A stretch of DNA of 64,000 nucleotides from Asterias amurensis (taxonomy: Eukaryota; Echinodermata; Asteroidea; Forcipulatida; Asteriidae). Under the pieces are notes generated by a model that saw nothing but the letters and a program-made list of their open reading frames with translations, ran no database searches and was not told the origin of the DNA. The stretch spans positions 27,816,501 through 27,880,500 of the forward strand of contig NC_092650.1 of NCBI RefSeq assembly GCF_032118995.1. Direction: 5' to 3'. Every line of letters starts with the position of its first letter. Positions within the stretch are counted from its first letter, which is position 1. Below, piece after piece: positions 517 to 39,500 of this stretch. Position numbers and translations under genes: made by a program.

Positions 517-3500
517 CTGCCATGAGGAATAAAATTGCATAATAGATTATTGAACTCTGTTTTTTTAAACTGAATTCAGCCTTTGGCTGCGAATTTTGAA
601 TGTTTTTTAATAAACCAATAATAATAATTAAGGTAACACCTACATAGCCAACAATTGAAGCAAAGTGCAAGAACTTGCATAGCATAATTTTGAGCTTGTT
701 GATTTAACAATTTGCATGTTCAACCATCATTCATGTGACTGCATGCTCCGATGATTAAAGGCTCTTTGAACTGTATGGTCTGACTCACAAACCATCTCAA
801 CCATGGGGCAGGAATCCTTCATTAGGGAAACGAGCCCAGTCTAATGTCACGCTGGAGGTTATTAGCGACTTTGCACTATCCCTTACATCTTAGGATAGAA
901 AAGCCCGGTATTGGTTTCAGTAATGTAAACAAGGGTGCTAACCCCATGGTTGACCGCAGATGAGTCCTAGATCATGTCAATCATTGTGTGGAGAGAACGT
1001 GTGAGTCCATGCACAACCTGCTGCTTGATCCTATTAGCACACTAGCACACGGTCTCATTATGCAGTCCCCATAGTACCCCAATAGTACAAGGTTTCGGCC
1101 ATGGAGGTAGAAACTATTTCACTATTTCTACCTCCATGCTGCTATCCTGATGCAACTGGCCAAATAACAGAATGTTGTTACAGCAAAACAACGAAGCTCA
1201 AAATGGAAAAGAGATTTGGGACTTCATTGATGCACCTTTCATAAATCAGAACCTCTTCTTTTACGGGACACATTGCCTTGATCGGGCGAGTTGATAAAAA
1301 GCATTGTAAACATTCGAATGGCATTCGTTATGATATGTTTATAATAGAAATATTATGTTTTAAAAGTAGAATACTGTACAGGGACAGAGATCCACACTAC
1401 AACTCTTCAGCCAAAAAGAATGAGAAGTCTCAAGTAACAACCCTTGTAAAAAAGTACCATGGTTTTACCATGGTAACCATGGTTTTATGATGGTTACCAT
1501 GGTTAATCCATGGTAAAACCATGGTAGTGTTCTCATAGGTGGTACTCCAATGGTTATACCATGGTTTTACCATGGTTTTATCGTGGTTGTCATGGTAAAT
1601 CGATGGTATCTATGGTACACCTATGGTTTAATGATGGTTACCATGGTTAATCCATGGTAAAACCATGGTGGTGTTCTCATAGGTGGTACTCCTATGGTTA
1701 TACCATGGTTGTACCATGGTTTTATCATGGTTGTTATGGCAAATCGATGGTATCTATGGTACATCTATGGCAATAAAATGTTTTCATCATGGTAATGCCA
1801 TGTATAACTATGTGATAAAACGTAAACGAGGAATAATGTTAAATTAACTGGCCTAAAGTTAGTGTTTAGACAGTGTACCCAAAATAAAACTCCATATTAT
1901 TTTTACAAGTACAATCAATAAAAAGCAGCACACAGCGAAAGTCAAATTACATTGTTTCATCATTTATTACTCCTTAAACTCACAACCATTGATTTTCCCA
2001 AAAATAAGCATTCCTGAGGGAGTTACAAAATTAATTACATCTATTTAATCAAATACATTCAGTTCATAGAAATGTAACTTTTAAAGTACATGTACAGAAT
2101 GACCATACAGTCGAGTGTGGACAGATTAATCATATAAAGCATTTAATTTATAAACAAGTTGATAGTTGAATTTAGTCACCTTCACATGTATTCGGGAGCT
2201 TAATAACATAATCAGTGTTTTCCACTTTTACCAGCATCGCCTTCCTAATTTGCACATCGCTATGCAGTGCAACATAGGCACCTCTAGAAATAGCATGAAT
2301 AAAACCAACCTGGCATCCAAGCTCATCATCAAACTCATTTCTTAAGGTTTGTTCAATTTCCAACTCTTGAACTAACAACATAACATGTTGTAGACAATCA
2401 CAGTCAATACCAGCTCCACATACATGGTTCTTAAATGAAATAAGACCCACAATCTCGGCTAACATCCCTCTGACATCTATAATAGAATTGTTACGCCTGA
2501 ATTTACTTGAGTAACTTCTTGATGTAAGCAGTGCATTTTGCAATATGAATCTATCATAGCAATTCACATTAGCAGTAATTAAATGCTGCCCCAGCAAAGT
2601 TTCAATAGCATATCTAAAAGACTGGGTCACGTACAAAGTTTTAGGCAGTCCAAGGCATACCAAGGTTGTATCACCCCTCACAATTTTTAGAACATTTTTT
2701 ATGAAACGTGGACCACCCAGAAGCCTTGAAACATAACATGCAGTTCGTTCAGATGAAATTAGTGGCGCATTTCTTTTTATATCTTGAAACCTACAAATGG
2801 ATTGAAAAATTTGTTGAGGCACGTATCTTGTTCCTGAAAACATCGTTTTCAAGCAACCGTTAAAATCTTCAAACATAAAAGCAGATGTACCCCACAATGG
2901 TCCCCAGTTATTGACACTGTCGGACATGTGCAGCAATAAGTGAACATTAAATGTTGCTTGTGTTGCGCCATACAATGGTTCCATATAAAGAACAAATTTG
3001 TGGAGAAGAAAATCACACCATTGCAGAGTTTGTTTTGATATTTTGCATGTGTTTAAATGAAAAATTGCACATGCAAGCATCGACCAATGTGCCAAATATT
3101 TAGCAGGTAAAATATCCTTAAGTATCAATGGAGAATACAACAAAAATGACCGCCATTCATTGGCCTTCCAAAATTTCAATTCAGACAGGGATCTTGGCAA
3201 TCTTGTTATTTCTTTGGTAGCTTGTATAAACTTTAGCCTTGCGCATATATCTGCGCTGCGTCTACCCAGATACCACTCGTTTGAACTATTTGATGGATTA
3301 AGCCACATGGCAACAATCCTTCTCACTGTTCCCAAACAAACTGCATGCATATAATCTGGAATAAAACTGGAGATTATGTTAAAGTAAGTCAGAAATGACA
3401 GAATGCTGACTCCTTTCACTCCATCAATACTTCTTCGAGATTCATCAGCAAGTATACTAGCACGCTTTGTCTCTTTTTCTTCACGCAGTGGAGGTTGAGG

Positions 3501-6500
3501 GTGCTTATAAAGATATTTCATACTGTTTGTTACATAATCACCTTTATGTTTACAAAAACCACAGCCGTAAAATCCATTGAACTGAATGAATTTCTGCAAC
3601 ATCGGTCTTGCAACTGTATCTACAGTGCAAACAAGACAAAATACTCGGGAAACTACCACATTGTTATTCAATTTCCACACAAATCCTGTAGATGATAAGC
3701 TGTTGCACTCATCAATGAATGGTTTTAAGAATATGTTCATATCAGGCTTTTTATCTCCAAACCAAAGAGCCGTCAGTAGAACATTCTCTCTGCGCAGTTT
3801 CATTGGCAGTTCATTAATTGAACACAGAACTGGCCAAATGCTAAACTTAGATGACTTAAAAATAGGCACACCATCAGTGTTCCACAACAAAGAAATATTT
3901 TTGTTGTCAGATAAGAGACCATCATCAACAAGCTTCCGATACATTGCACCATCTTGGATATCACATATATTATTTCCGTCTGTAGTGTGGACTCGATTCA
4001 TTAACAATGAACCAAGCCCATCTGTTTCCATAACATGCTTTAGTTGGGAAAAAAGAGGCATAACCATGAAAAAATTTCCATTCTTCAAACTTGTATCTTT
4101 ATCAAAAGCTTTGTTACAGTGCTGACAATGATCTGGACAACTATCATCTGAACCTAAATATACCTGACAAGAACAGTAAAAATGAAATTCTGTAACACCT
4201 TTATATCCTGTGAAGCTATTACCGAAAAGATACTTGGAGGTTGGCAAGCTGTTTGGACAGTGCATATTAATTAAATCTATAAGGTCTTGTAGCGCAACCC
4301 CTGAAATATGGTGTTTCACAGCATAGGTCAGTACAGCCAGAAGACTATCCATCCTGTTCAAGTCAGTCCCTTCAGAGGATATAGGCTGATCACCATTTTC
4401 CACATGCAGTGTGCGTCTATTCTGCAACATAATAAAAAATTATTATTGTTATTTAAGATTTACTAACCTAGTATTAAACAGCAGTACACATATATGTATA
4501 TACATGGTCCCAACATGAACAACAGAGTTGATGTTCACGTTTCACTAGTGTGGGGGCATGCGCTACCCGGAAGTGGAGGAAGAACATTAATATTCTGTAA
4601 TGTTGCGCATTACATAATTCCGGTGCACAGAGACCAGACTTAATGGCACATGCCTTGGTTTTATGCCCACAATGATTTCCCAAACCATTACAACTAATAA
4701 TGAGATTAGTTTCCAACCTATAATTAGTATAAATAACAAAAGTTGAAGCCCATTTCAAACATCATAAATTTTTATTAATATTAGAAATTCACCTGTAAAT
4801 GTTCCCTTACCTGCTCATGACCACCATCCACGTGTTCTTCGTGTACAGCAGGGTCAGCATATATATCGTTATCGCTATCAGAATCAGACACTGGAAAAGG
4901 TTCTTCCTCCTATTGAACAATAAAGTGACATGGCTGTCATCAATCACAAACTACTCCATGCAATAATATTAAAAGTATATGACCAACTTAGAATGGTGTA
5001 TTTATTATAAATTGGGGCATTATTGATAAGAAAATATTTACCTGATCACTGCCTTCCATGTCTTGTTCCCTTGCTTCTGCAGTGCCAATGTTGCCATCAT
5101 TACCAAAGTTGAGATCTTCAGAATCAGACAGTGGGAAGTATTCATCCTACAAATTTATAAAAAAAAAAATTTAATGGTTAATAAAATCCCTCAACTAGTT
5201 TTTCTGATTTCGAAATTTTACTCCTAAACTCTAAACTTTACAAATCTTAGTCTGGTTCTTACACTAGCCCAGGTTGGACTCCTCCATTGCATTCAACCTG
5301 ACCGGGTCCAGGGTAAAGGTCCCATACCCTGCGGAAAAAACTACAATTTCTTAAAATATTTTTACTTCATGGAATATTTTTACTTCATGAAACTTTGTTC
5401 ACTTTATTCATTGTGTGTCTAGCTAGGAACTCTTTAGAATGGCGGATGCAGAGTTTCGAACGGATGCGTGGTTGTAGTGTGTACGATTTTTTTTAGAAAT
5501 GTCATCTATTCTATGGATATACTTCTAGAAACTATAAGCCTTATAGTTATAGTTTCTAGAAGTACTGCTGTGAGTGTGAATAGGCCTATTTGTTTTTGGG
5601 GTCCCCCCCCCAAAAAAAAAAAAAAAAAAAAAAAAAAACAAAAAAAAAACAATGAAAATCGAATTGAAATAAAATAATTTAATAAAAAATGCCCCATTTA
5701 AATTTTACAAGCTTCGAGTTCGAATGTTTGCAACAAAAAAACATAATTTATAAATACTAACCTCATCCAAATTTTGGTGGACTTCGTCATTGTTGAGCAT
5801 GATGATAGCAAGGCCATGATCATGTGCTTCGCCTTCGTCAATGGAATGGTGGTCTGAAGAGCTCTTCTGCTGATTCAGCTCGCGCTCTGGCAATGGCATT
5901 GCTGGTGCTGGTGGTTGGTCCAGCACATCAATTTCCCCGTCACGATGATCCAAATTTTCGTCAGAAGATGTTTCATATTCGTCTTGAGATTGATCTAACT
6001 GTCTCCTAATAATAGTTGCTCGAGGAATTGTTAGATCTTCTTCTTCCAAAAATCGTTTATACGGAAGACGGCGGCGTTGTCCGTCACCATCCATCTTCGT
6101 TTCGGTAAGCTATCCGGGTTGCTTACCTGATCGGTGTTCAGACGGCGGGTATCCGTTTGGGTCTGATTCGTTCAGACAACACGTCCGTCAGACAACTCGA
6201 CCGTTCCTACGATTCTACCATTCGGACAACTCGGCGGAAATACGTGTATTGTAAGTAAACAGAGGTCGACCATTCAACCGGCCGTCGATTTGTCTTGGCT
6301 ATCCGTCGAGCTGTCCCAAAGTCGAGTTTTCTGAACTCCCCAGTTTTCCGCACGGTCGAGCTGTCTCAAATCATCTAAGACTTCCAGTTGACCGAACGGT
6401 CGAGTTGTGCGACGGACGAGTTGTCTGACATTCTACCGATCGACCCCTCTTGTGTTTGCACACCTAGGGCTTGGTAAGTCATGGAAACAAGGTTGTACAT

Positions 6501-9500
6501 ACATGTACAACACGCATGCAAGGAGTGATGCACGCCAGCTATTATTTATTTGTTTGTAGAATATTACAAAATACCGTAAACAACATCAGCAATGATTGTA
6601 ACGTATTCAGTCATCTACATATACATTTTTTAGAGAACATTCGATAATTTTAGGCAAAAAAGTGTAGTTTTTGGCACGATCACGTGATACGTTTTTATCC
6701 AATAAGAGTCGGGGTATGATGACGTTGCACGATCATGCGCACATCTATCCGTTTTTTGCCACGTCATCGGCAGTTTGAATGAACGTCGACGTCAGCAGCA
6801 GAGCAGCAGGAGACGACCTCTACACTCTATAGCTCGCGACCGGAGTTTTTATTGTCATTCAAATAAATTGAACTTTGATCCTTTTTTATCTGGTATTCAA
6901 TATTATAATGAAGAAGTATGCACTTTTTGAGTTTACGGACGACGCCAGTGTTGAGGTGGGTGAAGTCAGCTGGATAACAAATGTTGAGCAAAAAGATCTT
7001 CCTTGTGTGATAACTGAAAAGGAAATGGTGACGGTTTTGTGGCCGATCTCGGGCCACGGCGGAACGGCGAAGCACGATTCCTACAAGGCAATTGTTCTTG
7101 CTATAAATGGTGAGTAAAATATTAGTTTAAAAAAAACATAGTTTAGACCTCGGCCTAGGATATTTTGTTAAAAAAAAAAAAAAAATCATGCCGGATGGTG
7201 CCAGTTTGCTGTCAATTGGTTATTGAAAATAGTGATCTATATTTTATAAATGTCAACTTTAATTTTAAAATCCTCACTTGATATTGTTTGATTTTGAACG
7301 GTTGTTTTTTTCCTCCAATTCTAATTTCAGATTCCAAACTCAAGTTGATTGAGAAGAGGAACAAGCTGGTCAAGGGGGAATCCATAGAAACCGATTTTGA
7401 AAGGGGTAGGGGAAAGCGAAGGAAGTACCCCTCAACTAGGACAAGGGTGCCATCATCAAGCAGTTCCGAGTCCGATTCGGAAGAAGAAGAAGAAACAGCA
7501 CAGAAGGTTTGTTAAAAAATAAAACATAGGCTATATGCTCATAAATGTTTGTGCTCTACTAACAACAAATCCAGTAGTATTATAGTAAGGTTATTTTGCA
7601 TGACTCCATGACCATGAGCGAAACACTTGTACATTTTAATATGATTTTATTTCCATATTACAAAAATTTAAACAAAACCCCAAATCCTCAATTTGCAGCA
7701 CCACCAACCGCACAATCTGCAGAATTAGGCGAGTTAAAAAAAATGCACATAAAAAAATGTTGTTGATGTCTGCACTGCAAGTTTAAGTACTATATAGTTG
7801 CAACAAATTAGCAACATTTGCAAACTAAGGACTGTGTAGCGGTAGTGTAAGGACTAAGGTTGCGAGTTGTTTTTTTCTTGAAAATATACAAATGTAATAC
7901 AATGATGAAAAATTGTTTATTCATATTATAAGGGCCATCCTGGCCATGGCTTTTCTCGGTGTGTGTTACTCTATGAATTGAATGGTAGGGTGGTCTCTCA
8001 AAACAAACTTCAAGTAAATGTATGTAAATTATATAATTGTTTTCTTCTTTAGGCCAAGAAAAAAAGGTCCTCAAATGACAGCGGCACAGTGCAGCAAGGC
8101 ACAATGCTTGCACGGGAACTGCGACAACAGATGCAGTCAACTTCTTACAATATTGAGGTATGTTACAGGCATGTTTGCTTTATTTTTTGTCAGAATATTT
8201 GTTCTATTTTGTGTGAACCTTTTTGCTTGAGGATAAAATGGGGTGTGTACAGCATAGTGAACTCCTGTAGTGTAAAAACCAAGACTTACATCATGAATGG
8301 TATTATTTTCATGGCTGCAGGATCAGGAAGCTGCCGAGATATCTCCCGATGATGAGAAAGATTACAAAAGCATCATTGCGGGACTTCAACGAGAGTTGAA
8401 GAAGGAGCGTAGCGAAAAAGAGAGACTCCAGAACCAGTTAATGTTTTTTAAAGGTTTGCCTACCATTTCTTTGTGTTTTTGTAGGACCCATAGTTATCCT
8501 TTATTTTTATAGGGATAGCAAAAGTTGGTGTCAGTGTGGATTGCAGATTGCAATAATTAATAGATGATCAACGTCATGTGGGAAATGAAAACAAAGCGAG
8601 ATCGGACCCCGCAAATTGAGGTCGTGCATCCCGTCTATGCCAGAAAGGGACTGCACACTTGAGTGACCTTTCATTAGTGAATTTTTGATTTACTTTTGTT
8701 CACAAAAGGTGCATCAATACGCAATCATTCATGTACCTGAGTGGAAACGACCGCAGTTCCTGTCTGCGATTAATCCATTTCTGTGGTCAGATCTCTTAAT
8801 TATGGATCTTGTGGGATTGCGGTCTTACATGTTTATCTATATAGTTTCAAAATTCATGAATTTTTGTATAATATTTATCAATTTTACAGGTATTCCTGAC
8901 TTTATACAGACATTCAAGACGTTCATGGCAGAAATGCAAAGAAAGAGGGCACCTAAGGTAAAAACATTTTCTTGAAATTTACAACAAGTTAGACAAAATA
9001 CTTATGTTTATAAACTTGTTTGTATCCCCCCCCCCCCAGAAATTTCGTTTTCTACCTGGACATTGAACTCTTTTATATCCTTCCTATACAAATTATTTTT
9101 GCACAGAACAATCTCAACCTTCCTGCAGCAGCGGTTGGACCGGAAAGAGTTGTGATACATGAAGCTCCTTCACTGATGGATCTTGAGGATGAAGATGAAG
9201 TAAGCATTATTATACTATTATTTGTTTCAATTCATAAAGTGCTACACTGCAAAGATTTTTCTTTTACATCCTTGGTTTGGTCTTTTCAAGTAAGATTTTT
9301 CTTTTAAATAGAGTTGGTTCTCATCTTTGAATAATGTTATTTGAGGCCTTCAGCTGGATTGGAATTGTTTAAGATGATCATCACCCACAATAATTAAGCA
9401 GTGTTCATCATCAGAGTCAAGCATTTTTCTAAATATATGATCAGAGCATACTGATTGAAACGTTTAGCTGGTATTAAAACCAGATGTTCTTTGAAGGTTA

Positions 9501-12500
9501 TTTTACCTACAAGTTGTTACAAGGTCATAAGTATTACAGAAGTGTTTTAAATATCTTAATTCAGCAGGTTAACTTGAGCTCCAATGTGAGAGTAAAGAGA
9601 AAGCTGCTAGCAAGATGCAACTCATCTGATCCCCGCAAGTTGACATCTGACTTGATGGTGCTTTTGTTCGGCCGAGAGATGCTTGCCTCCCACTCCCTGA
9701 CGGGCAGCAAGAATACAAGGGGCGTTTCAAAGCCGGCCTTGAACACAAACAAGGTTGATGCAATATTAGGTACGCAACTACTAACTCATTATCTTCTTGA
9801 ATCCCAATTTCCGATTTGATGATCCTTGGCAACAACTCTGATATATTTCCTATATTGCATGGTGCAAAATGTGTTTTTCTCATGCGTATTGCGCTTGTTA
9901 ATCTTTGCGCAAAGAGTTTAGCTGCAGAATTTACTGTAAATACAAAAGTGGCGCGTTTGCATTTAATTCACTTAATGGAAGGAATGCTTCTCAAAAACAA
10001 GCAGATGGTTTTGATTCATTGATTTCCTGATTAAGTTACTGCAAAAGAATGTCAGTTTACAGCAAAATTACTTTATTATTTTTTCACAGCATATGTCACG
10101 AACAAGTTCAAGGATGCAAGTGCGGAGTCAATAAGGTTAGTGATGACCAATAAACTGAGCAATGAGGGGAAGCTACAAAAGAAGAAACTTGCCACTGCAC
10201 CTGAGCAGCCAGATCCAGATCAGTAACACCTCACCAGTAGATCAGAGGCATCTCTTAAGTAGGATTTGAAACTTTGCACCGATAACATTCGGTAAAATTG
10301 TGTGTGCTTTCAGATGCCTGAATAAAGGGCTTCAGGCCTTACGTCTTTTTCAGATTTATTTTTTTTAGTGAGAAATTACCGCCTTCTCAAAAACTACTAC
10401 TACTGATTACCAAAAATGTCCAGTGCCTTTAATATATATCAAAAAATATTAGTAATCGAGTTAATCAAATTTTCACTAACCTATGATTGCCGTATCAGTA
10501 AAAGGGAAAGTTCTTTGGAACATACACAGCATTCTTCTGTATGGCTTTATGCTAAAGTAAAGTGTTCCCATTATGAAACTATGCAAAACCTGTTGTGTTG
10601 TATTCAACATGAACAAAAAATACCTTTTTATCTAATATTTGTGTCACGGCAATTAAGAAAGTAAGGTCTTTTATTATTATTATTTTCACGACGATACTTT
10701 GTAACAAAACTATTTGTAAGCAATTTGTAACCTTCAGAATTCTGTGCCAAAATGAGAGTTTTTTTTAAATTGTTGATAATCTTTTTGTCTAACATTGTTT
10801 TAGTATCATATTTTCAGTTGATTTAATTGTTGCACTTTTCGACTACTGGAGATAGCCCGATCGATTGGTTTTACCATTATTTGTCATTTTCATACACTTG
10901 ACTTTATCCCATTGGAAAGTGAGATGAAATTCCATGTTTCGCCGATGCTGGCTCAAACATTTTAAGAACGAAAACGGAATACATTGTTTACTTAACTTGG
11001 GAACTGCAACTAATAACCATGTTTAAAAGAGAGCTTTACTAATAGGATAGTTTGTGTCTTTTAAAAAGACTTGTGTTTGCTTGCCAAATCAACTATGGAA
11101 TTCATTGACACTTACAATCTATATCAGTTATCAAACCGTGTTGTCAGTAAGTCATTACAATGAAGTAACATGTACAAAATTAAATGACAAGTAACTTGAT
11201 GTACTAAATAAATGTTTGACTATAATCTTAACAAGTTTTAACATTCCATTTATTTTCAGTGTGTGGCTATAGGAAGTTGCATGCGGACAGATGTAAATAC
11301 AGTTCTACCATGGTTTAATGTACCCATTTTATCACAGGTATCTTGTACCATGGTTGTGTCATGGTTGTACCATGGTACATCTTACCATGGTTTTATCATG
11401 GTATCTCGTACCATTCTTGTACCATGGTATCTTGTACCATGGTACAACCATGATACAAAGTACCATGGTATAACCATGGTAAGATGTACCATGGTACAAC
11501 CATGGTACAAGGTACCATGGTATCACCATGGTTCAAGGTACCATGGTAAAACCATGGAACAAGGTACCATGGTAAAACCATGGTACAAGGTACAGCTACC
11601 ATGGTATAACCATGGCACAATGTACCATGGTACAACCATGGTTTTACCATGGTAAACTGTACCATGGTAGAACCATGGTACAATATACCATGGTTATACC
11701 ATGGTAAATTGTACCATGGTTTTACCATGGTACAGTTTACCATGGTAAAACCATGTTAAACCGTATCATGGTAAAACCATGATATAACTATGGTACAGTA
11801 CCATGGTACTACCATGGTACTACCATGGTTGTGTCCAAATTACCATCGATTTGTACCATGGTATTACCATGGTAAAATTTACCATGGTTTTACCATGGTA
11901 CTTTTTTGTAAGGGAATATATGAAATTTCCGTGTACAACTTATGCAACCAACTACGGAAACGGCAGGAAGCCGTCTCCAGAAAGCACCACAAAAATATCG
12001 TTTTTCGAGCTTTAAAATGGAGGTTGGTCCCTCTCAAGAAGGTGATGTTAAACTACAGTTGTTTGCCTTCTGCCGTATGGTTAGACCAAATAGCGAATCG
12101 GGATACCGGTGGTTGTTTGAGATCCCATTGAATGCACCTACACAGCACTATTCGGCGGTGGCAGAGAATGCTCCGTTTAATTCAATTAAATTCAATACAA
12201 TTCAAGTGCACATTTCCAAATCTCCACATAACAACAGAATAAGTGCACTTACATGTTCACATGTTTAAAAATGTACCGGTTTAAGAGGTATATTCCCTCC
12301 TTTTAAACGTCATTTAAGCGTGCAAGTATACTATTGGAAAGTCCAATTCTTGAAGATTTATGTGATATTATTTTGGTTTTTATCCCACCGTAAGCTGGAA
12401 TAGTTATGATCATGTGGAAAATTTCTCGAAAATGAGAAGTAACGTCAACACAAGTTTGGAACTCAAACCTGCTACGCGTTAGGGGCATACCAATCTTAAG

Positions 12501-15500
12501 AAGGGGGTAATGTTGCCGTGTGGTGTGATTTTCTTTTTTAGTACAGTGCATTTTTCCGCACGCTTCTGCAGTATAGTTTTGCAACAGAGCAAAAGTTGCA
12601 GTTTATTACAGATGTAAACAGTTTGTTATTATTTATTTTTCTACGTTTGATTTAATTGCAAAGTTTAAGAAGTGTTTTAACACCTTAATTGTGAATGGAA
12701 TGGCCAAAGCTTTATGCTTTACGGACGAACGCACAGCTTCACACAGATCGGGCTAATCCGATTACCGGACTCCTGTACAGAGTTTTAGGTACGCGCATTA
12801 ATGATTTACCTCGAATTAAAACAGCAAAGGAAACAGGGCTAACACATTCATTATTTTTTTTTTTTTTTTTTTTGGGGGGGGGGGGAATCAAACAAATAAA
12901 CAAACAAACCAATTAACAAACAAACCAATTAACAAACAAACTAGTAAACAAACAAACAAGCAATAGCAAGATAGAGTGGCATTATAATTGATTTCATTGA
13001 TTTACTGTTTAATTCAAACGTTCACCTTCACTGAGTACATGTTTACGTGTGTATTCTGAGTTATCGAATAACATCCTAATGGGATTTATATAAATGCATT
13101 TAAAATAACGTTTCAGGTTTATGTCAGAAAAATACCTGGCAAGTCTGCCATGCACAAGTTCAAAACAACAACAATGGCGTAATTGATATAATGTGTTCAA
13201 TGTCAAATTCTAACTGGATTGATTGTCTGAATGGTTGTTCTAATAGAAACTCTATACCATGTGATTGTAGTAATATTAAGTTAAACACACGATAGGCCGA
13301 CGTGTATAATACGAATAAAAAATAAATAATAACGGTGTGATGGCATAATCATTTTTTTTAGATGAGCATTCATTCCAATCATCTTGTTTTCCAAAATACA
13401 TTTCTTAAAAATTATGTGTGAAATGTCAGCAAAATTTGTAAAAAAAACCTTTACTAACAATAATATTATCGTAACAACTTAAATTATCTTAAACTTATTT
13501 GCTATGCAGTTTTAAAAATCAAACTCCATGTTATTTGCATTGTACATAATACTTGCATATACTTGTACCTAAGCCCCTTTCACACGAGCGCTGCAAACGC
13601 GGGTCCCTGGTTAAGGGCGCCAGCCGTCTGTCACCTTTACCGCGTGCGATTTTTTAGCGAGCATTCACACGACACGCACACACACATGTAAACATACGTC
13701 CCTCGTTTGGGTAGGCCTACTGCATGGACAAAAGTCTACAAGCAAGAGGTTTGAGTTAAAACAAAAACCTTACAGTTAAACGGAATAAAATTAATCAATT
13801 TCATTGAAATCAATTAAGTCACATAAAATGTAGAATATTTTAAAAGCATTTGCGATAACGTAACTCTCATCCCGTCGAAGCTAAAAAAAGAAAAACACAA
13901 AATTCCACGATTCAACTAGCTTTTTGGACGTTAAAAATGCTACTTTGTTGAATGGGAATGCTTTTTAGATATGAAATTATTGATGAGACATACCAAATAA
14001 TGAATTAAAACATCGAAAAGCTTAGCCAAATGACGTATTCTGCTTGCGATTGAACGATGTTTTTGCTTCAAGGTTTGAGCTTGTCTTGAAATGCAGCGAT
14101 CCAGCAACGTCGAGTCATGTTCGAGTCGAAGAAAAACACAAAATTCCACGATTCCAATAGATTTTTTTGATGTAATAACGCTACATTGTTGAATGAAAAT
14201 GTTTTTTAGATATGGAATTATTGATGAGACATAACAAATAGTGAATTAAAACATCGAAAAGCTTTGCCAAATGACGTATTCTGCTTCCGATTGAACGATG
14301 TTTTTGCTTCAAGGGGCTGGTCTAGCATCCGGCCACAAAACCCACCAGCCAAACGGATCGTAGTCCAGCGTTGAGCAGATATACATGTACATGTATGTAC
14401 ATGTACATGTATGTATGATATGCATGATATTTTGAGGTTCCGATAAATTTGACCATTAAAGTGTTAACATGTAAAAATAATTGCCGCAGATGGGTAGGTG
14501 ACCATTACCTTTCGATCCAACTAGACATTACACGTATATGGTTATACAAAGATAAATAAACACAGTAAATACAAACAAATAAAATAATGTCCGCTCCCTC
14601 GATTGTGGAGCGTACGTGTATGGTGCCCGCTCTCTCGGAAGGGGAGCGACTGTGTTTAGCCTATTGTACGTGTATGGTGCCCGCTCTCTCGGAAGGGGAG
14701 CGACTGTGTGTAGCCTACGTGTATATGGTGCCCGCTCTCTCGGAAGGGGAGCGACTGTGTGTAGCCTATTGTACGTGTATGGTGCCCGCTCTCTCGGAAG
14801 GGGAGCGACTGTGTGTAGCCTATTGTACGTGTATGGTGCCCGCTCTCTCGGAAGGGGAGCGACTGTGTGTAGCCTATTGTACGTGTATGGTGCCCGCTCT
14901 CTCGGAAGGGGAGCGACTGTGTGTAGCCTATTGTACGTGTATGGTGCCCGCTCTCTCGGAAGGGGAGCGACTGTGTGTAGCCTATTGTACGTGTATGGTG
15001 CCCGCTCTCTCTGAAGGGGAGCGACTGTGTGTAGCCTACGTGTATGGTGCCCGCTCTCTCGGAAGGGGAGCGACTGTGTGTAGCCTATTGTACGTGTATG
15101 GTGCCCGCTCTCTCGGAAGGGGAGCGACTGTGTGTAGCCTATTGTACGTGTATGGTGCCCGCTCTCTCGGAAGGGGAGCGACTGTGTGTAGCCTATTGTA
15201 CGTGTATGGTGCCCGCTCTCTCGGAAGGGGAGCGACTGTGTGTAGCCTATTGTACGTGTATGGTGCCCGCTCTCTCGGAAGGGGAGCGACTGTGTGTAGC
15301 CTATTGTACGTGTATGGTGCCCGCTCTCTCGGAAGGGGAGCGACTGTGTGTAGCCTACGTGTATGGTGCCCGCTCTCTCGGAAGGGCAGCGACTGTGTGT
15401 AGCCTACGTGTATATATGGTGCCCGCTCTCTCGGAAGGGGAGCGACTGTGTGTAGCCTATTGTACCTGTATGGTGCCCGCTCTCTCGGAAGGGGAGCGAC

Positions 15501-18500
15501 TGTGTGTAGCCTATTGTACGTGTATGGTGCCCGCTCTCTCGGAAGGGGAGCGACTGTGTGTAGCCTATTGTACGTGTATGGTGCCCGCTCTCTCGGAAGG
15601 GGAGCGACTGTGTGTAGCCTATTGTACGTGTATGGTGCCCGCTCTCTCGGAAGGGGAGCGACTGTGTGTAGCCTATTGTACGTGTATGGTGCCCGCTCTC
15701 TCGGAAGGGGAGCGACTGTGTGTAGCCTATTGTACGTGTATGGTGCCCGCTCTCTCGGAAGGGGAGCGACTGTGTGTAGCCTCTTGTACGTGTATGGTGC
15801 CCGCTCTCTCGGAAGGGGGGCGACTGTACGTGTGTTATGTACGTATGTGGTGTCCGCTCCCCTGATAGGGGAGCGGCTGTGTGTAATGTAGGTGTGTGAT
15901 GCCCGCCTCTCGAAAGGGGGGAGGGCGGTTGTGTGTATGTACGTGTTTGGTGCCGCTCCATACAATTCACATTGCCCCTCCATACCCATACATTGGGTTT
16001 CCATACTGCCTTGAACTCATCTTCACACTTCTTCTTCAGAGATCGAATCTTTCTGAGGCTTGGAACTACCCCTGGAATTCTCCTTTGAAACCAGTCTATT
16101 ACCTCGGATACGTTCTTTGTGTCCTCGACGAATAACATCTCCTCTGTCTGAATCTGGAAACGTGACTGAATTTCCTGTCTGTGAAAAAAATGAATAAAGG
16201 TCTATTTCGTTATTTGGATCTGTCTTGTTGGCACCGGGGAAATGGTTAAAATGCACAATGTTTAGAATCTACGTCGGACTACCGGTTGGCCTACACAAAC
16301 CTCATAAACACAAAGGTTTAACTTTAGCTCTAGTGATTTTTATTTATTATTATTAATATTATTAGTATTTTGGTTATGAATTCAGTACGGTCAATGTAAC
16401 TTATCCTTAAACACCATGCGTAGCGCACGACCGTCTTTCAATAATATGTTGAAATGTTTTGCCGCGTTGCCGTGTTATTTTTACCTCACGATTTCATCAA
16501 AGAATGAATCTGCATCCTCAGTCCCAGATTTTGTCGTCTTCAGAACCGTGATGAAATCGTCCTTGACGAGGTGGCCATCCCATTCTTCATTACTTTTTCC
16601 ATAAGAAGCATCCCTGTCAGATGGAAATAACAACAGTTAGTGGTTTCGTTGTATCGATCAGACAGAACAGTTTTGCAAACAACTACTACATACTAATTTT
16701 TGTCTTTTACCCATCGAACACCGATGTGTGTAAGTCATGTTGAACTAATGGGCAATCTCGGTAGTCGAGTTGGTAAGACACTGCTCTATTGCAAGGGTTG
16801 TGGGTTTTTCATCCCAAATGCAAATTAATCATCTATTAATATAACAATTAGTAGGCCTGCTTATGATCGGCAGTGATTGGTTATTGATCGACGATTGACC
16901 GTAACATTTTACGCATGGTTGGGACTTTTCTATCAGAGTGTCTTTGGAATATTTTTTTAACACTAATTTCAGTAGATGTAAATTAATTACTTCTTAATTT
17001 GTTAAATGTCCAGCTTGCTTCCACCGTATTTTATTCATTGATGGTCGACACCTTAAATAAACTATGGACGCCGAACATGATAGCCTCGATCTAAACTGAT
17101 GTGTCCGTGTGTGGGGTCTTTTTACAAATTCAGGTTGTAAATTCAACGTCTCAACCAGCTACACGGATCCACCCCACTCCACCCCACTCCACCCTAGGCC
17201 TAAATTTATGGTAAAAAAACGCACTGAGAATGGAAGTTTATGTTATTAAAATAAGTTGTAGAACTGGTATGATTTATGTGTGAATCTTGTATGTACTTAC
17301 CACGCCAATGCAGTCAGCAGATCGTTTTTTTTTCCACCAGCATGGACCTCCTTGGTGAGCTGGATAAGTCTCTGTTTATGCTCACACATCCTTTTTTAAC
17401 TCTCAGTTTGCACTGGGCCCTTGAGTGGGGTCACCAGCAGCAATAATTTTTGAAACAATATTCGTGGTTGTTTCCAAATTTTGTTTGTGGGCATTTGGTG
17501 GATGTTGCCGATGTCGCTCATTGGGCTGGCCAATCAATGCTGCCAGGCAGGTGTTTGTGATAAAATCCCTCAATTCATATAACTTATTGACATTGAAGTC
17601 GTCAAGGTCGGGAATGTACTTTGTCAGTTGCTCTTCGCTATCCCTTAAATAACCCCCTCCGATTAGAAGGGTGGTAAAGCAAAGAAGACTGATGTGGGTA
17701 CGATTATTATTCCTGCCAGAACATATAATTTCGTCCCGTACCACAATACCATTTTCATTGAAACATTTGTCAAATGGAACTCATCCTCTGATTTCTTTTC
17801 GCTTGAACAAACCAAGAAACTTTAAGCACTGTTCAGCCTCGAGAAAGCATTTCCCGTTCTGAATTACATATGGGATAAAACACCCTAGCCAGCCAAACTG
17901 GCCTGGATTTGCCATTATTTACAGATATAGTTTAGTCATCGGATTGTTCGACTACGCTATATACACACAAAATGTAAAATAAACTTGACACGTTGAGCAA
18001 GGACCATTGCACCATTGAGCACCCGAAAGTTCTGTGGTGGAATAACGACCTTGAGCCAGCTCCCCGCAACACAGCCTAATAACAGACCGTGACCACTAGC
18101 AGCGGTGAAGGTGTTTATGGTGCAGTGATTACGTAAGCAATTTCGGTGACCAGCCACCCGACCACTGCGGCCTCCTTGGGTCAGTGGTGTTGTAAGTATA
18201 ACTTTCGACTCCTGACCGCAGGCTAGATTATCAGTGAAGATAATCAGTTTAAGTGCTGCAAGCGTTCATAATTGACTTGGCTCGAACCTCAGAAAGTGAG
18301 GTTCGAGAACGTGACATTAGACTGGGCTCGTTTCCCTAATGTTCACAAATCACCCTCATGAAACAAAAACAATCACAAATGAATGAATGGTTGACCAGTT
18401 TTGTTTTTACACACAGGACGGGAGCGATCGGCCGGAAATGGGCCTGCTTGATCATCACGTAATGAGTTTGCCGTAATCGTACTCGGGCGGTAAACGCAGG

Positions 18501-22635: not shown

Positions 22636-24042
22636 GGGTCCCGGTGTGGCGGTTTCAACTTTCCGCTGTGTTCAGTTTTCCGAATGACCAAATACGGTAG
22701 CATTACGTCATGCGATGCCTCCGCACAGCAAGCGAAAGTAGTCCATTGTTAGTGCCGTATTGAGTTATCCGTTACCCTCCGGTAGCTGTCATGGCGGCGT
22801 CCACGAGTCGAGTGCAACTAGCGGCAAACGTGTGGATCGTATGAGTTGTTTTTTACGCAAGCAGAGTGTGACCTGCCTGAAGTTGTTCCCATGAATAAAT
22901 GTAAAGATAGGGCAAGAGACTATGTGACTACACAGAAAAGAATAGTAATATAAACAATGTGGGGTCACTGCTGAGAGAACTACACTACTCGCAAGGGTAC
23001 TCGCGGCGGTATCTGAGAGGTCACCCGGAAAACTGAACACGCCGGAAAGCTAAAACTATGGTGGCCCCGAAGGGACATCGCATAACGCAAACGTGTGCGC
23101 ACACGTATGCAATGTCGTGAAAGAAATCGCGAATATATGCGCACACGTATACAATATCGTGAAACAATTCACGAATATGTGCGCACACGTATGCAATGTC
23201 GTGAAACAATTCGCGAATATGTGCGCACACGTATGCAATGTCGTGAAACAAATCGCGAATATGTGCGCACACGTATGCAATCTCGTGAACCAAATCGTGA
23301 ATATGTGCGCACACGTATGCGATTTCGTGAACCAAATTGTGAATATGTGCGCACACGAGTGCGATTTGTTTTGCAATGTCGTGAATTTTATTGCATACCA
23401 TGTTGCATACCATTAGGGTGATGTCATAGTTGTGGATAATTTGTTACCGATCTAGGGAGTACTGTGGCGCTACAGCAGGCTCCCTCTGTAAAGCATGTGT
23501 ATACCCAGGAACTTGGCACCAGGCCAAGGACGACCACACGCCTCGCTTGCCTCACAACAAAGACTACTGCTGCAATGACTACCGCTTATCTCACTGTTGG
23601 AAAGAAACCCCCCAGATCATTAGACATTTTATTCAAAGGTATGCAACATGGTATGCAATAAAATTCACGACATCACAAATAATATTCGCAGACGTGTGCG
23701 CACATATTCGTGAATTGTTTTACGACATTGCATACGTGTGCGCACATATTCGCGAATTGTTTCACGACATTGCATACGTGTGCGCACATATTTGCGAATT
23801 GTTTCACGACATTGCATACGTGTGCGCACATATTCGCGAATTGTTTCACGACATTGCATTCGTGTGCGAACATATTTGCGAATTGTTTCACGACATTGCA
23901 TACGTATGCGCACACGTTTGCGATATGCGATGTCCCTTCAGGGCCACCATATAAAACCGTTCGAACAACGTGCAGATATGACCGACTACGTCACCCGGAA
24001 AACTGAACACGGCGGAAGACTGAAACCGCCACACCGGGACCC
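22636..24042. mobile_element. Nested fold-back element with 42-bp unit arms
   Basis: The outer ends are inverted repeats of about 45 bp: left GGTCCCGGTGTGGCGGTTTC, right GAAACCGCCACACCGGGACC. A second copy of the inner end (CGGAAAACTGAACACGCCGG) lies at 23027-23047, so one element may sit within another. The core, 23062-23950, is a long inverted repeat. The left arm has about seven 42-bp units (GTGCGCACACGTATGCAATG + TCGTGAAACAATTCGCGAAT) and the right arm has about six in reverse orientation. Arm ends are mirrored (GTGGCCCCGAAGGGACATCG against CGATGTCCCTTCAGGGCCAC). The loop is about 225 bp. 42 is divisible by three, so open frames on both strands are artefacts. No transposase; it resembles Foldback-type or other non-autonomous elements. 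Confidence 0.8.
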
Positions 24043-33500: not shown

Positions 33501-36500
33501 GGTTTAAACCATCAGTTGAAAACCGATTCAACACATTTTGATTCCCATTTATAAATACCTTTTCGGTCAAAAACATCATCACTTGTTGGTCAAAAAGTAA
33601 AATAAATGCAAAAATTATAATTGTTCAATGATTTTTTTTCAACACAACACCCCTCCAGCTATGAAATTGTAGGCTCCTCCGCTGCCCTCGTGCAAACAAC
33701 TCCTTATAAGGGAATGCTGGGGGCGTCGCGCGTCCCGCAATGTGGCACAACTGTTTCAGCCGTTGCTCTCGACCAATAGGAATGAAGAAACTGTCTTATG
33801 AGAACAGGTGCAAGGTCGCGTGTCACGTCCATAAATTAACACTTTTTACCGGTCATTAACAAAAGGTTTATGCACACCCACGTGACGCGCTCTCCACCAA
33901 TAGGAGAAGAGAAACTGTCTGGGGTATTTATGAATAATAGTTTAACAAACGTCCAATTGGTTTGAAACTATATGCTCCATCCGTGAAATCAAAAACAACA
34001 ATCTTGTTATATGTTTTACAAATTTGCAACGGGATAAAGAATAATCATTTTGGTTTTACCCAAAAAGGCCTACACCGATGTGTGTTAGCACTGTATACTC
34101 TGTATTTCCCTTGCTCTGTGAAAAAAATCACAGGTGTATTAAAATTGGGTTATAGTTAGCTTCAAACACAATTTACTGAAGACACCACCAAATGTAACTA
34201 TGCCAGTTTGTTGACTCATTTTGGTCATTCAATAAAAGGGCTATGGCATCAAGCTGTACAGCTCGATTGGCCGAAGTCTCACTGACTGCTACTCTCAATT
34301 TAAAACAAAAATTGTTTTTCTGTTATAGTTTGATCATGCTGCTTATTTCTTATATTTTTTCACCTTATTTACTGTTTTTCAGACCTTCCATGCATCCTGA
34401 GTGGGAAGACGATTGGTTTCTTGGATCCAAGAGAAAAACACTTCAACTACAATCCTCACACCAACACCAAGTACAAGGGGAGACGAGGTAAGAAATGGAA
34501 ACTTAATGCAGAGCTACTGTCGAAATTTCGAGGACAGTTTTCTCCCTTTCTTGTTGACTTATTCCGTTGTGCTGAATCCAGTTTTGCGAATGGTCATTTT
34601 GAAGGAACTATTTTCCGGTTTCCACTTCGTACAGAGGCTTCAGAAATCAGTAAAAATGTGTACACAGATGACCATCGAGTGCTTGACCTCTTCAGGTCTT
34701 TTGAAACAGATTCTGAGCTGTCTCTACTGTTCCTAAAGCATGTCCACTCTATTGAAGTCTATGACAGGGGTCATATTCATGAGCAGCCACGACAAATCTT
34801 CAAAGTACATGTTACTCCTGGCGATCGTCCACACTTGACAATTCAAAGACGAGACTTTTTGACACGAGTTCCAGAGATGCGAGACTTTCATACGGTGGCA
34901 TGTATGAATATAGAGAAGCAGACCGGTGCCGGCTCTTGCATCAGCAGGTTCATTACAGTGAATACCATAAAGACAGAAAGTACCTCCCCTCAACTTCAAC
35001 AACTCATCAGTGACGCTGATCTGAAGTTAGTACCCTGGATGGGTGTAGCCATTCAGGTCGGCATGTGTCAGGATTCAATAGGTGTCAGTAGGAGTGATGG
35101 TCGAGTGTTCTGTTTCCTGCCACTGCCTGGTAGTGAGCAAACTGGTTTACCTGTTCACGTTCATGGCTATTTTGGCATTGGTGACAACCGTCGAGGCATC
35201 AAATGGCCAGATCGAGAGTCTCGACATGACAAGAATGCCATATGGAACAAGCTATTGGCAACTGAAGTATTTCCTGATGTCTACAGAAAAGTGGTTCTTG
35301 CTTCAATAGAGAAAAGCAAAGAGGCAACTGATCCAGTCAAACCCGATGATGTCTATAGAGCCTGGCCACGTAAACAGAGCATCAACGAGGAGTGGTCGAC
35401 AGGTGTCAAAACATTCCTGCAGATGCTTAGGAATGATGCAATCTTCTACACTGATCACAATGGTGGCTGTTGGATGAAGGCAAACGAGGTATACGTGGAC
35501 ACCCAAAAGAACCCTCTGCTTACTAAGATACTAAAGCATAAGGGATATGCAATTGCACAACTGCCGAGCCACGTTACTGCATCTCTTCGTTGGGCAGGTG
35601 TCCAGTACCAAGAGATAACACCCTCGGTTGTTCGTTCATGTATCCGGCATGATCCTCTCCAATACCTATCACAAGCTCAGAAGCTTCAACTTATAGACTA
35701 TGTTACGAGTGACACACAATCTGATCTGACCAATCTCTATCTACTGCCATTACAGGATGGTACATTTACTTTGTTCTTGCAAAGATCACCCACAGTGTAC
35801 ATTGCCAGCAGTAAGAATCCAAGTGGTCTCATTCCAAATGCAGAGGCAAAGTTTGCTGCAAGTGACATGCCAGTAGTGTTGAAATCTCCACAAGTATTAT
35901 CCTACACTCAGCTGAAGAACCTTGAGGTCGACGATATACTACCACTACTTCACCAAATACTTCCAAGTACCTGGACTAGAGGGACAGATGTAAAAGTCCA
36001 GTGGACTCCAGGATGCAACAAACATCCCTCCATTCAATGGTTGACTGAGATGTGGAACTGGCTGACAAAGAATCAAGTCTCTCTTGAGAAATTCAGAAGT
36101 ATTCCACTCATTCCAATGATGAATAACGGGTTCCTCGCAAAGATGCAGGAAAATCGCATCATATTTCGTAAGCAAATGTCAAGGTATTCAAATGCTTGTT
36201 TGACTGAGGGCATTTGTCTGTTTCTTGAAAACGTTGGGGCAATTGTTTTACGTGATGATCTTCCGTCTTACATAACCAGCCACAGGAAATTGGACAGGTT
36301 CATCCAAGCTCCGGATCCTGAGGGAGTGCTGAACATATTGATTGCACACAGACAAAAAGTCAACATGGAGAGATGTGTAACAAAGATGAAAGCTAGAAGT
36401 AAAAATGAGCTGAGAGGTTTATTTTGCCAACTGCGAAAAGTTAGTAATGAACAGAAAGAAGTTCTAAAACTCCTGCCTTTGTTTCTGTCAAATGATCAAA

Positions 36501-39500
36501 GTTTTCTATCAGCAAAGCAAGGTGTGAGTGCAGTTCCAAGCAGTTTCTTTGGGATCCCAGTCAAACGTCTGAAGAAGTGCCGAATCATCGTGGATAGCTC
36601 TGAAGACAATTTAGTATCTTTGATGGGTATTCACAAGGAGGCAGCTTTTGAGTTTCTGCACAACAATATCCTTCCTGCTGTGGCCGAAAGATTCTACACT
36701 GTCGACGAATCCATGACAATTATGTCTTGGGTGTTAGCAAACCAAGAATATGATGGTTTAGTTCAGCACTTGAAGTTCATACCCACTGCAGATGACAAGC
36801 TGGCAAGTCCCTCTGAGCTATTTGAACCAAGTGATCATCTTTTATTGCTGCTTGGATCTGCAAATGTGTTTCCAGTCAAGGAATATTCAAAGGGTAAACT
36901 TCTCAATCACCTGAAACGGGTCGGTCTGAAGAATGATTCTCATGTCACGTCTAGTGATGTGCTAAATGTGGCAACCGAAGTGTCAAGAGGTGGAGAAAAG
37001 AGACAGGCAGACGTTGAGAGAGCTCACGTGCTCCTTATCTACATCAATCGCTTCCCTCATCTGTTAACTCAGAATGTTTCCAGTAACAGGATAACTAAGC
37101 CATTGTACAAGTTCCTTGAAGATTTGAATTGGGTTCCATGCGAGGGTTCATCTCCATCTCAGTACCCTGTCTCAGCTGGCTGGTATGGTAAGAACAACAC
37201 ACTGTACTCCCCACGTCAAGTTGGGTTAATTGAGTCAGCCATGTTGCAAGGTTCTGTGGTTCCTCTCATCAGGATGCAAGGTATTCGACAAGAGCTACTG
37301 AATGTCTTCAACTGGAGTGCACAGCTTGATCCAAGAAACTATCAGAAGGTTGAAAATGTTGTGCACCAATTGAAGAATGTTGTGAGCAACTTTGTATATC
37401 CAGCCGGGATACCTACCGTCTCCAATGCAGTACATGAGATATACGGGTTCCTTAGCAGAGCCTCAGACCAGCATCTGAATCACCTGTTCCCAACCATTAT
37501 CACTTCAGAACCATGGGTATGGTATGGCGCAGGGTTTACAACCCCTGACAAAATGGCAATAACTGTTGGGACACTTCGTATTGATCTGAAGCCATACCTC
37601 TTCACTGTACCAGACAGTATCAAACCACATGATAATCTCCTTACTCGATTGGGAGTTCGACAAACCTTCCAGGAAAGTGCACTCAGTGTTGTTCTGTCAC
37701 ATATTCAGATGAAACACGAAGGGGAGCATGTCTGTAATGAAACAAGCATTAACAGTGATGTAGAACTGGTGCACAGTATCTTAAGATACATCACGAACTT
37801 AGCCGATTTTGATTCCAAGACTTCAGACCTGCTAGTTCCTTGCAGGAATTTAGGAACAAGTGGCAGTTGTCTCTATATGCTGGAAGCATCCAAGTGTCTA
37901 TACGTAGATGAGGAGCGACTAATGAAACAAATTTTTGATGAAAATGTCCTGGCAGAATATGACAGACGTGTTATCCATGAGTCGATATCCAATGATTTGG
38001 CTCAAAGTTTGGGTGTACAGCCATTAAGTCACATCTTAGCTCCATCTGAGGCTATAAATTATGGATATGATTTGGCAGGTCCTCACGAGACTCCAATAAA
38101 TGCTATTAAGCGAAATCTTGATATGTACAAGAAAGGAGTGGACATCTTCAAGGAGTTGATCCAGAATGCTGATGATGCAGGAGCCACTGAAGTGAAGTTC
38201 CTCATTGATTGGCGCAGAAATGAAGAAACCGCAAGTGATCTTCTGAGTAGTGGAATGAAAGCATGTCATGGGCCGTCGATCTGGGCTTATAATAACGCAC
38301 GATTCTCAAAGAAGGACATCACAAATATCTGCAGTATAGCAGCACAGAGCAAGAAACTCAAGCTTGATAAAGTTGGACGGTTTGGATTGGGCTTCACTTC
38401 AGTTTATCATCTCACAGATGTCCCTAGTATAGTCAGCGGACCCTATGTGTTGATTTGTGATCCTAGAACCACACATCTTGGAACTCGTATACAGCCTGGG
38501 CACCCTGGTATTAAACTAGATTTGACTAATTCACGTCACCACCTTACACTCAAATCATATCCAAACCAGTTTGAACCTTACAATGGAATCTTTGGCTGCA
38601 ACCTTGCTACATCTACTGATGATGGATTCGACCACACCTTGATCAGACTACCACTACGTACACCCGAAGAAGCAAATCAACAGCTGAACCATTTAGCTGA
38701 TGGTGTATTTGATTCAAAGGATGCAGTCAAACCACTAATAGAATCTTTGAAGAAGGCTTCCTCCACCCTCTTACTCTTCACTCAAAACGTTGTCCATGTT
38801 AGTGTTCATGAGCTTGATTCTAAGAACCCATATGAAATGAATACAGTGATGTCTGTTAAACTGGAGAGGATTCAACAGATGCCTCGATCAATATCAGGTC
38901 AAGAAGAAGACATGAAAACACAACGTAATCTCCTTGCGGCAACAGTAGCATGCAAGGACGACTCCAGTTTACCTGTCCCAGAGACAACAATGATTGTGAA
39001 GGTCACTCAGGAGACATATGCATCAAACAAAATCAAGAAGAAATGTAGTCAATTTATCATCAGCTCATGCATGGTGCAGGGTGAAATCTTAGACTTAGCA
39101 GAAACAAATGATGGTTGCAGAGCAGGAGTTCTCCCATGTGGTGGTGTCGCAGCTGAACTAGTCGCCGGTGTACAAGGTCTTGCACCCAAACCTGTTGATG
39201 GTAAAGCTTTCAGCTACCTACCACTTGAAGTCTCAACAGGTCTTCCCTTTCATGTCAATGGCAACTTTTTGCTGCAGCCCAATCGTCGCCAGCTCTGGAG
39301 TAAGCCATCATCTTCAAAAGGTGAGTTTGAAGCACGTTGGAACATTTGTCTCATAAAGTCAGTCTTATCTCGCGCACTTTTTAATCTTCTCCAAGATCTT
39401 CAAACTATGCAAAGCCAGAATGTCGTAAATGCACGAGATTTTCAGAGTTTGTGGCCAAGACAGTCCCAATGCTCAAGTGATTTTTGCTCATTTGTTGATA

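Follow-up and report, generated by a model that had tools for sequence, protein, structure and literature searches.

Does an animal transposon of the CACTA superfamily encode, besides its transposase, a protein that recognises its own ends? In the literature examined, as far as its available parts go, the transposase of animal CACTA elements is known and no partner for their end repeats has been identified. The question is raised here by a stretch of 64,000 nucleotides from the sea star Asterias amurensis (NCBI RefSeq assembly GCF_032118995.1, contig NC_092650.1, positions 27,816,501 to 27,880,500 of the forward strand; hereafter the window), which holds an element of 10,474 bp with two genes between matching ends, one for a transposase (Tnp2) and one for a protein with a BEN domain. 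On the evidence of its sequence, of the palindromes arrayed at its two ends and of its copies and relatives elsewhere in the genome, we consider it probable that the BEN protein is the element's own accessory, end-binding DNA-binding protein, acting beside Tnp2 in a complete cut-and-paste transposon of the TRC type. The genome searched is that of the window (491.5 Mb in 23 contigs, here C2, C4 and so on), repeat copy counts from it are lower bounds, and papers given by PMC number are cited for the parts of them that were available.

One insertion of the TRC type

The element was recovered to the base as a single insertion at positions 1441-11914, bounded by the following features:

1439..1440, no strand: left copy of the target-site duplication, AA (flank read and empty-site match)
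1441..1462, plus strand: left terminal inverted repeat CCCTTGTAAAAAAGTACCATGG (end-motif search of the window)
11893..11914, minus strand: right terminal inverted repeat CCCTTACAAAAAAGTACCATGG (end-motif search of the window)
11915..11916, no strand: right copy of the target-site duplication, AA (flank read and empty-site match)

The two terminal repeats are alike at all but 2 of their 22 bases, carry the core CCC at both ends (as CCCTT) and are the only two matches to the terminal repeat in the window at up to 3 mismatches, against 0.04 expected. An empty site in the same genome (C2:16907787-16908286) matches the joined flanks with a single AA at 500 of 500 bases (100%), and two more (C17:14483529 and C5:5882562) match over all 500 bases at 98%, with the junctions confirmed by reading. 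From these matches follows an exact insertion with a 2-bp duplication of AA, which bears out the proposal of the first-pass annotation, made from the letters of the window, that one 10.5 kb unit with matching ends and an AA flank is present.

Because its ends begin with CCC and its target-site duplication is 2 bp long, the element belongs to the animal TRC branch of the CACTA superfamily. In plants, the ends of CACTA elements read CACTA and the duplication is 3 bp long (PMC4158355), whereas CCC ends with a 2-bp duplication were reported by DeMarco and colleagues for animal TRC elements (PMC1636069) and are likewise found in a Hydra element (PMC4298943). The plant type, as in En/Spm, was accordingly rejected, with ends reading CCCTT and a duplication of 2 bp, and the earlier label "CACTA-like" holds for the superfamily, by virtue of the Transposase_21 domain described below, and not for the plant-like type.

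Two genes, head to head

The Tnp2 gene lies on the minus strand (4 exons, 928 aa) and the BEN gene on the plus strand (8 exons, 372 aa), with their starts head to head and 813 bp apart. Exon positions were set by hand, from the sequence alone, and are as follows:

2172..4421, minus strand: Tnp2 exon 4, with Transposase_21 (PF02992) at spliced residues 347-484 (gene model and Pfam)
4811..4909, minus strand: Tnp2 exon 3 (predicted gene model)
5042..5146, minus strand: Tnp2 exon 2 (predicted gene model)
5762..6094, minus strand: Tnp2 exon 1 (predicted gene model)
6095..6907, no strand: intergenic stretch between the start codons, probable two-way promoter
6908..7109, plus strand: BEN exon 1, N-terminal domain (predicted gene model)
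7331..7506, plus strand: BEN exon 2 (predicted gene model)
8053..8157, plus strand: BEN exon 3 (predicted gene model)
8321..8453, plus strand: BEN exon 4, probable coiled coil, by eye (predicted gene model)
8890..8957, plus strand: BEN exon 5 (predicted gene model)
9107..9199, plus strand: BEN exon 6 (predicted gene model)
9565..9769, plus strand: BEN exon 7, first part of the BEN domain (gene model and Pfam)
10090..10226, plus strand: BEN exon 8, end of the BEN domain and helix alpha5 with N348, S351, N352 and K355 (gene model and alignment)

In both genes every predicted intron is GT-AG and every frame is open, and the G+C content of the exons is 0.38-0.49, against 0.28-0.37 in the BEN introns. 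Transposase_21 is found in Tnp2 above the curated Pfam cut-off (E 1.8e-10), as is the BEN domain (PF10523) in the BEN protein (E 1.5e-11, 44.7 bits against a cut-off of 23.2), so that the two open genes of predicted spliced structure, for a transposase and a BEN protein, as annotated at first, are confirmed. An artefact or a pseudogene was rejected, the frames being open and a second copy existing.

The BEN domain is the sole Pfam domain above cut-off in its protein, which places it among the BEN-solo proteins. From its N-terminus, the protein consists of an N-terminal exon with no Pfam match, a charged middle, a stretch at about residues 171-206 that looks heptad-like by eye, and, at 284-349, the BEN domain; its closest solved structure is BEND6 (E 5e-14; 38% identity), followed by Drosophila Insv and Bsg25A. 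In Tnp2, D362, D447 and E697 are the likely candidates for the D-D-E triad, placed by motif position. A single-sequence AlphaFold model of Tnp2 exon 4 reached a pLDDT of 33 and was set aside, and a search of solved structures with this exon returned chance-level matches only. In non-animal collections, exon 4 had no match in IMG/VR and two pattern matches, neither of them a relative, among GTDB contigs; the BEN protein had 18 pattern matches in IMG/VR, a collection without relevant animal genomes, none of them a relative. A scan of NCBIfam gave no match for either protein.

The intergenic stretch also holds a 35-nt inverted repeat (arms 6172-6206 and 6394-6428, 91% complementary), which sits in a cluster of GACAACTCGAC- and GTCGAGTTGTC-like motifs in both orientations. 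This cluster, at 6172-6428, is possibly a second regulatory array or a small nested foldback.

Palindrome arrays at the two ends

Each end of the element carries an array of palindromes:

1455..1830, no strand: left subterminal array of palindromes centred on CCATGG (13 such sites, for the most part 11 bp apart)
11300..11900, no strand: right subterminal array (35 CCATGG, spacing largely alternating between 11 and 15 bp, a 26-bp period)

The left array includes a 144-bp unit repeated twice (1479-1766), and 11 bp is about one turn of the DNA helix. The palindrome ACCATGGT occurs 44 times in the 64 kb, 11 times in 1441-1900 and 33 times in 11280-11914, with none in the interior of the element and none outside it, where dinucleotide frequencies outside the element predict about 1.2 per 64 kb; the subterminal arrays seen at both ends in the first pass are thus real. 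The shorter CCATGG is found 62 times in the window (13 left, 35 right, 1 interior and 13 outside), and the density of CATG, 5.5 per kb in the interior and 4.4 outside the element, rises to 44 and 66 per kb in its two ends.

Sites of this kind are known targets of BEN domains. Homodimers of BEN-solo proteins bind palindromes such as CCAATTGG (PMC6911014), and the BEN domain of NACC1 selects the palindrome ACATGT, with CATG at its core (PMC7764960). In helix alpha5 of NACC1, D462, T465 and R469 read bases and N466 contacts the backbone (PMC11472053). A profile search with the BEN protein found two NACC1 structures (E 3e-5 and 5e-5), which supplied the register of this helix, and in the profile alignment the BEN protein has N348, S351, K355 and N352 at the positions of D462, T465, R469 and N466, each identical or conservative. 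At the same four positions BEND6 has Q, N, K and N, and Insv has T, A, K and D.

Copies of the element

A second full copy lies on C11 (10,473 bp, with TA on both flanks). It is 99.7% identical to the window element and holds the Tnp2 and BEN genes in the same order between the same ends. Outside homopolymer runs, 7 substitutions separate the two copies, from which we infer recent movement, and the element is, to judge by its sequence, complete and recently mobile. Two truncated copies on C4 (A and B), inside a duplicated host segment, are without the left end and without Tnp2 and retain the BEN gene from intron 2 onward, with its exons 3-8, together with the right array and the region of the right end; the exact terminal repeat is present in one of the two.

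Both of the two full copies, in this one genome, bear out the expectation of the first-pass annotation that full-length copies have the two genes in head-to-head order and enclosed by the same ends. It had further named two arrangements as marks of a chance passenger. One of them, a copy with the ends and Tnp2 of this family and without BEN, was not found in this genome, the counts being lower bounds. As to the other, a BEN gene at a locus without the ends, 28 of the 32 rows of BEN matches in the genome fall in the four element copies (window, C11 and the two on C4), and the remaining four comprise one match of 34 aa to the coil and three BEN-domain matches at 47-50% identity.

Elsewhere in the genome, the left-end sequence of the window element is found with 1 mismatch at C6:13620600-13621700 and with 2 mismatches at C2:27430100-27430600, followed in both cases by similar CCATGG repeats; these are solitary left ends or small relatives. 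A 4.7-kb element at C17:13876500-13881400 has window-like ends, CG on both flanks and, in the stretch read, 66 CCATGG sites, many of them as CCCATGGG palindromes and often 22 bp apart. The genome scans gave no match to BEN or Tnp2 in it, and it is probably a non-autonomous relative. At C4:6759343-6833281, a match to the BEN coil (71%), a BEN domain (47%) and pieces of Tnp2 lie within 75 kb, perhaps the remains of an older element.

Related families with a second gene

A BEN gene is also paired with Tnp2 in a second family, represented by an element of 14,960 bp at C10:9548254-9563213 with GT on both flanks. Its ends are CCCAGGTGAAAATTC (longer form CCCAGGTGAAAATTCAAGTTGAAACCAGTT), start with CCC and have 29 of 30 bases in common, and its arrays consist of a different motif, AACTGGTT, with 97 occurrences on the left, 13 on the right and none in the interior. 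BEN on the minus strand and Tnp2 on the plus strand (37% identical to the window Tnp2) stand head to head, the spliced BEN domain matches PF10523 (E 1.7e-9), and the intron in this domain agrees in place and phase with that of the window gene. The right 6.9 kb, including Tnp2, are duplicated in tandem at 99.7%. At the four positions of helix alpha5 discussed above the protein has E, Q, R and D, alongside its different array motif, a combination that would fit a matched change of protein and array and is no proof of one.

The chance of finding a BEN gene at most 7 kb from a Tnp2 locus was 0.013 when contigs were kept and 0.028 for the Tnp2-rich block of C10. The test used 19 BEN places out of 23 PF10523 rows, the four copies of the window family being left out, and 32 Tnp2 rows reduced by hand to 21 places, with the window and C11 left out and pieces of one locus merged. 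Nearness alone is thus merely suggestive, and the pairing in family 2 is firm because ends and arrays enclose both genes. Thirteen of the 21 condensed Tnp2 places cluster at 8.1-14.1 Mb of C10.

A third family comprises four full copies of 9,877-9,891 bp (C10:8111877, C10:12979383, C10:13468432 and C7:17459214), with ends CCCAGATAGCAA, starting with CCC, and 2-bp flanks TA, TG, AT and AT; two of the four have common flanks and are probably duplicated host DNA. In the copy read, TTGGCCCA occurs 17 times; 9 of these sites are close to the left end, 7 are close to the right end and 1 lies between them. All four have an open frame of 713 codons which, where read, is 27% identical to the window transposase, and downstream of it lies a second gene whose spliced exons match the Pfam family DUF4806 (E 7.7e-10), with 376 bp of two of these exons identical across the four copies. 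DUF4806 is a subtype of the BEN domain according to a 2024 paper (PMC11075544), which cites Pan et al. (2023). A genome scan with PF16064 found no match anywhere, control genomes included; the probable reason is an intron that interrupts the domain, and the spliced protein is matched. The N-terminal exon of the DUF4806 gene resembles the N-terminus of the window BEN protein (local score 51, which none of 1000 shuffles attained), and the N-terminus of the family 2 protein does not stand out against that of the window or of family 3 (52 and 758 of 1000 shuffles reach the score).

On C21 there is an end of related type, CCCTTACAAAAAAGTCCCATGGG accompanied by CCCATGGG palindromes. A BEN exon is 2.1 kb away from it, and decayed fragments of Tnp2 are found at distances of about 16 and 20 kb; a second element end was not found in 23.6 kb, and as a further pairing of BEN and Tnp2 the locus is only suggestive. 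Several kb around Tnp2 were read at six places (the window, C11, C8:8386342, C10:9558790 with its tandem copy at 9569632, C10:8114264 and C21:9896336). For the three further copies of family 3 the reading covered the DUF4806 exons and the ends, and for the remaining Tnp2 places about 1.5 kb per side was searched for BEN, in addition to the genome-wide list of PF10523 matches.

A possible role for the BEN protein and its alternatives

Under the reading that we prefer, Tnp2 would cut at the CCC ends and insert the element with a 2-bp duplication, and the C-terminal BEN domain would read the CATG-centred palindromes arrayed at both ends. With its probable coiled coil, the BEN protein would coat the arrays and help to pair the two ends for Tnp2, and it may also control the promoter of the element, as TnpA does in maize En/Spm. 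Binding to the arrays, dimerisation and a role in transposition and regulation are what we infer for it, and it may be an animal counterpart of the TnpA helper of maize.

Several observations weigh against this. An intact BEN gene is not required in every copy, as a 5-bp deletion in BEN exon 2 of the C11 copy shifts the frame, and the family 2 copy is damaged as well, with one TGA in Tnp2 and an apparent frame shift in the first BEN exon. Purifying selection on BEN is weakly supported: for exons 3-8, dN/dS is about 0.27 against copy A (7 synonymous and 7 amino-acid codons; Fisher p 0.016) and 0.39 against copy B (7 and 10; p 0.07), counting changed codons and not single substitutions, in two tests that are not independent, A and B being one duplicated locus. 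In family 3, the transposase falls below the Transposase_21 cut-off, its one Pfam match being to DUF4218 and itself below cut-off, and the second gene is a DUF4806 gene on the same strand as Tnp2, not a BEN gene head to head with it; around a Tnp2 relative at C8:8386342 (40-43% identity, 2 stops), no BEN was found in the 17 kb read. The likeness in helix alpha5 consists of four residues in an alignment of distant domains, leaves the minor-groove contact R421 outside it, and puts G354 in the place of R468, a backbone contact of NACC1, which in its crystal sits on DNA as one molecule (PMC11472053). BEND6 was studied on CGCG DNA, with a Kd of 33-39 uM, so that closeness in sequence leaves the target unfixed.

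The BEN gene could instead be a host gene caught by chance and carried along with no role in transposition. Elements are able to carry captured genes, the genome has other BEN-domain genes, and one of the two full copies has a disrupted BEN frame. Yet BEN is present in both of these, the matches to its domain outside the element copies are only 47-50% identical, which speaks against a recent capture, and the motif of the arrays is a palindrome of the kind that BEN domains bind. The related families add to this, since family 2, with a Tnp2 only 37% identical, has BEN head to head and with the shared intron, and family 3 has a BEN-like domain in four copies; we therefore hold a mere passenger to be very unlikely. 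The BEN protein might, on the other hand, serve the element outside the strand-joining complex, controlling transcription or chromatin as a repressor, an insulator or a shield against silencing. Known BEN proteins are repressors and insulators (PMC6911014), TnpA also regulates its own promoter (PMC1636069), and the element has a two-way promoter-like region with an inverted repeat of its own; the arrays, however, are at the ends, about 4.3 kb from that region, and with no ACCATGGT in the interior recognition of the ends fits better, so that a purely regulatory protein appears unlikely. To the idea that two neighbouring units, or a nested insertion, have brought in BEN from a host locus or another element we give next to no credence: it is refuted by the empty site, which attests one clean insertion of 10,474 bp with a 2-bp duplication, and by the C11 copy with its same genes and ends.

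If the BEN protein does bind the ends, plants and animals have recruited unrelated DNA-binding proteins for one job, and a BEN partner with a matching palindrome makes a concrete, testable two-component system. It also raises the question whether host BEN and DUF4806 genes are of transposon origin. More speculatively, and to our mind somewhat doubtfully, animal CACTA elements may as a rule rely on BEN and DUF4806 proteins as their end-binding accessory proteins, every family matching a BEN-type protein of its own to its own array of palindromes. Some of the BEN and DUF4806 genes of hosts, lineage-specific expansions among them, would then be domesticated from such elements, their specificity for palindromes stemming from the recognition of transposon ends.

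Other features of the window

Outside the element, the window holds a foldback-like element at 23060-23950, with matching ends TATGGTGGCCC..AAGGGACATCGCATA and 42-bp tandem repeats that contain TGTGCGCACA and are inverted between its two sides; a similar end, CCCTTCAGGGCCACCATA, is found on C21 (locus L056, near 8260). A sacsin-like gene with a single giant exon occupies 34334-47095; its one open frame, 4,253 codons long, encodes Sacsin domains and HEPN and has a match to DnaJ below threshold. Since 54 is divisible by 3, a 54-bp tandem repeat at 14612-15885 (about 24 copies at 94%) stays open in several frames of both strands. Neither the Rfam scan nor the tRNA scan found a match in the window.

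Comparison with known systems

The type of element is already known, and the pairing with BEN was not found in the literature searched; a Repbase consensus entry may already hold such a gene unremarked. Among the listed titles and abstracts of open-licence papers, Repbase being outside this scope, there is no report of a BEN gene in a CACTA element. In the available parts of papers with both "BEN domain" and "CACTA" the two terms are unconnected (separate mentions, or a primer sequence), and those of papers on bracovirus BEN genes draw no connection between BEN and the genes of a transposon itself.

The nearest systems are the TRC elements (SmTRC1 of Schistosoma and those of Tribolium and Aedes), which share with the window element CCC ends, a 2-bp duplication, Transposase_21 and spliced genes (PMC1636069). 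SmTRC1 has a short, fast-evolving second protein without relatives, for which its authors supposed a TnpA-like role (PMC1636069). Where the second proteins of SmTRC1 are without detectable relatives, that of the window element is a BEN protein, encoded by a separate gene head to head with Tnp2 and accompanied by arrays of CATG palindromes.

With maize En/Spm and other plant CACTA elements (TnpD and TnpA), the likeness lies in the Tnp2 transposase, in arrays unequal between the ends and, only if BEN is the end-binding protein, in an element-encoded protein for the subterminal repeats. TnpA is not known to be a BEN protein. Plant elements differ in their CACTA core, their 3-bp duplication and the origin of TnpA from alternative splicing of one unit (PMC1636069, PMC2613891, PMC4158355), and their subterminal repeats are bound by TnpA-like proteins with little similarity between families (PMC2613891). 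The BEN-solo proteins (BEND5/BEND6, Drosophila Insensitive and Elba) and NACC1, finally, resemble the window protein in their single BEN domain and, in several cases, their palindromic targets; they are chromatin factors of the host, whereas the gene for the window BEN protein belongs to a transposon that has the palindrome arrayed at its ends.

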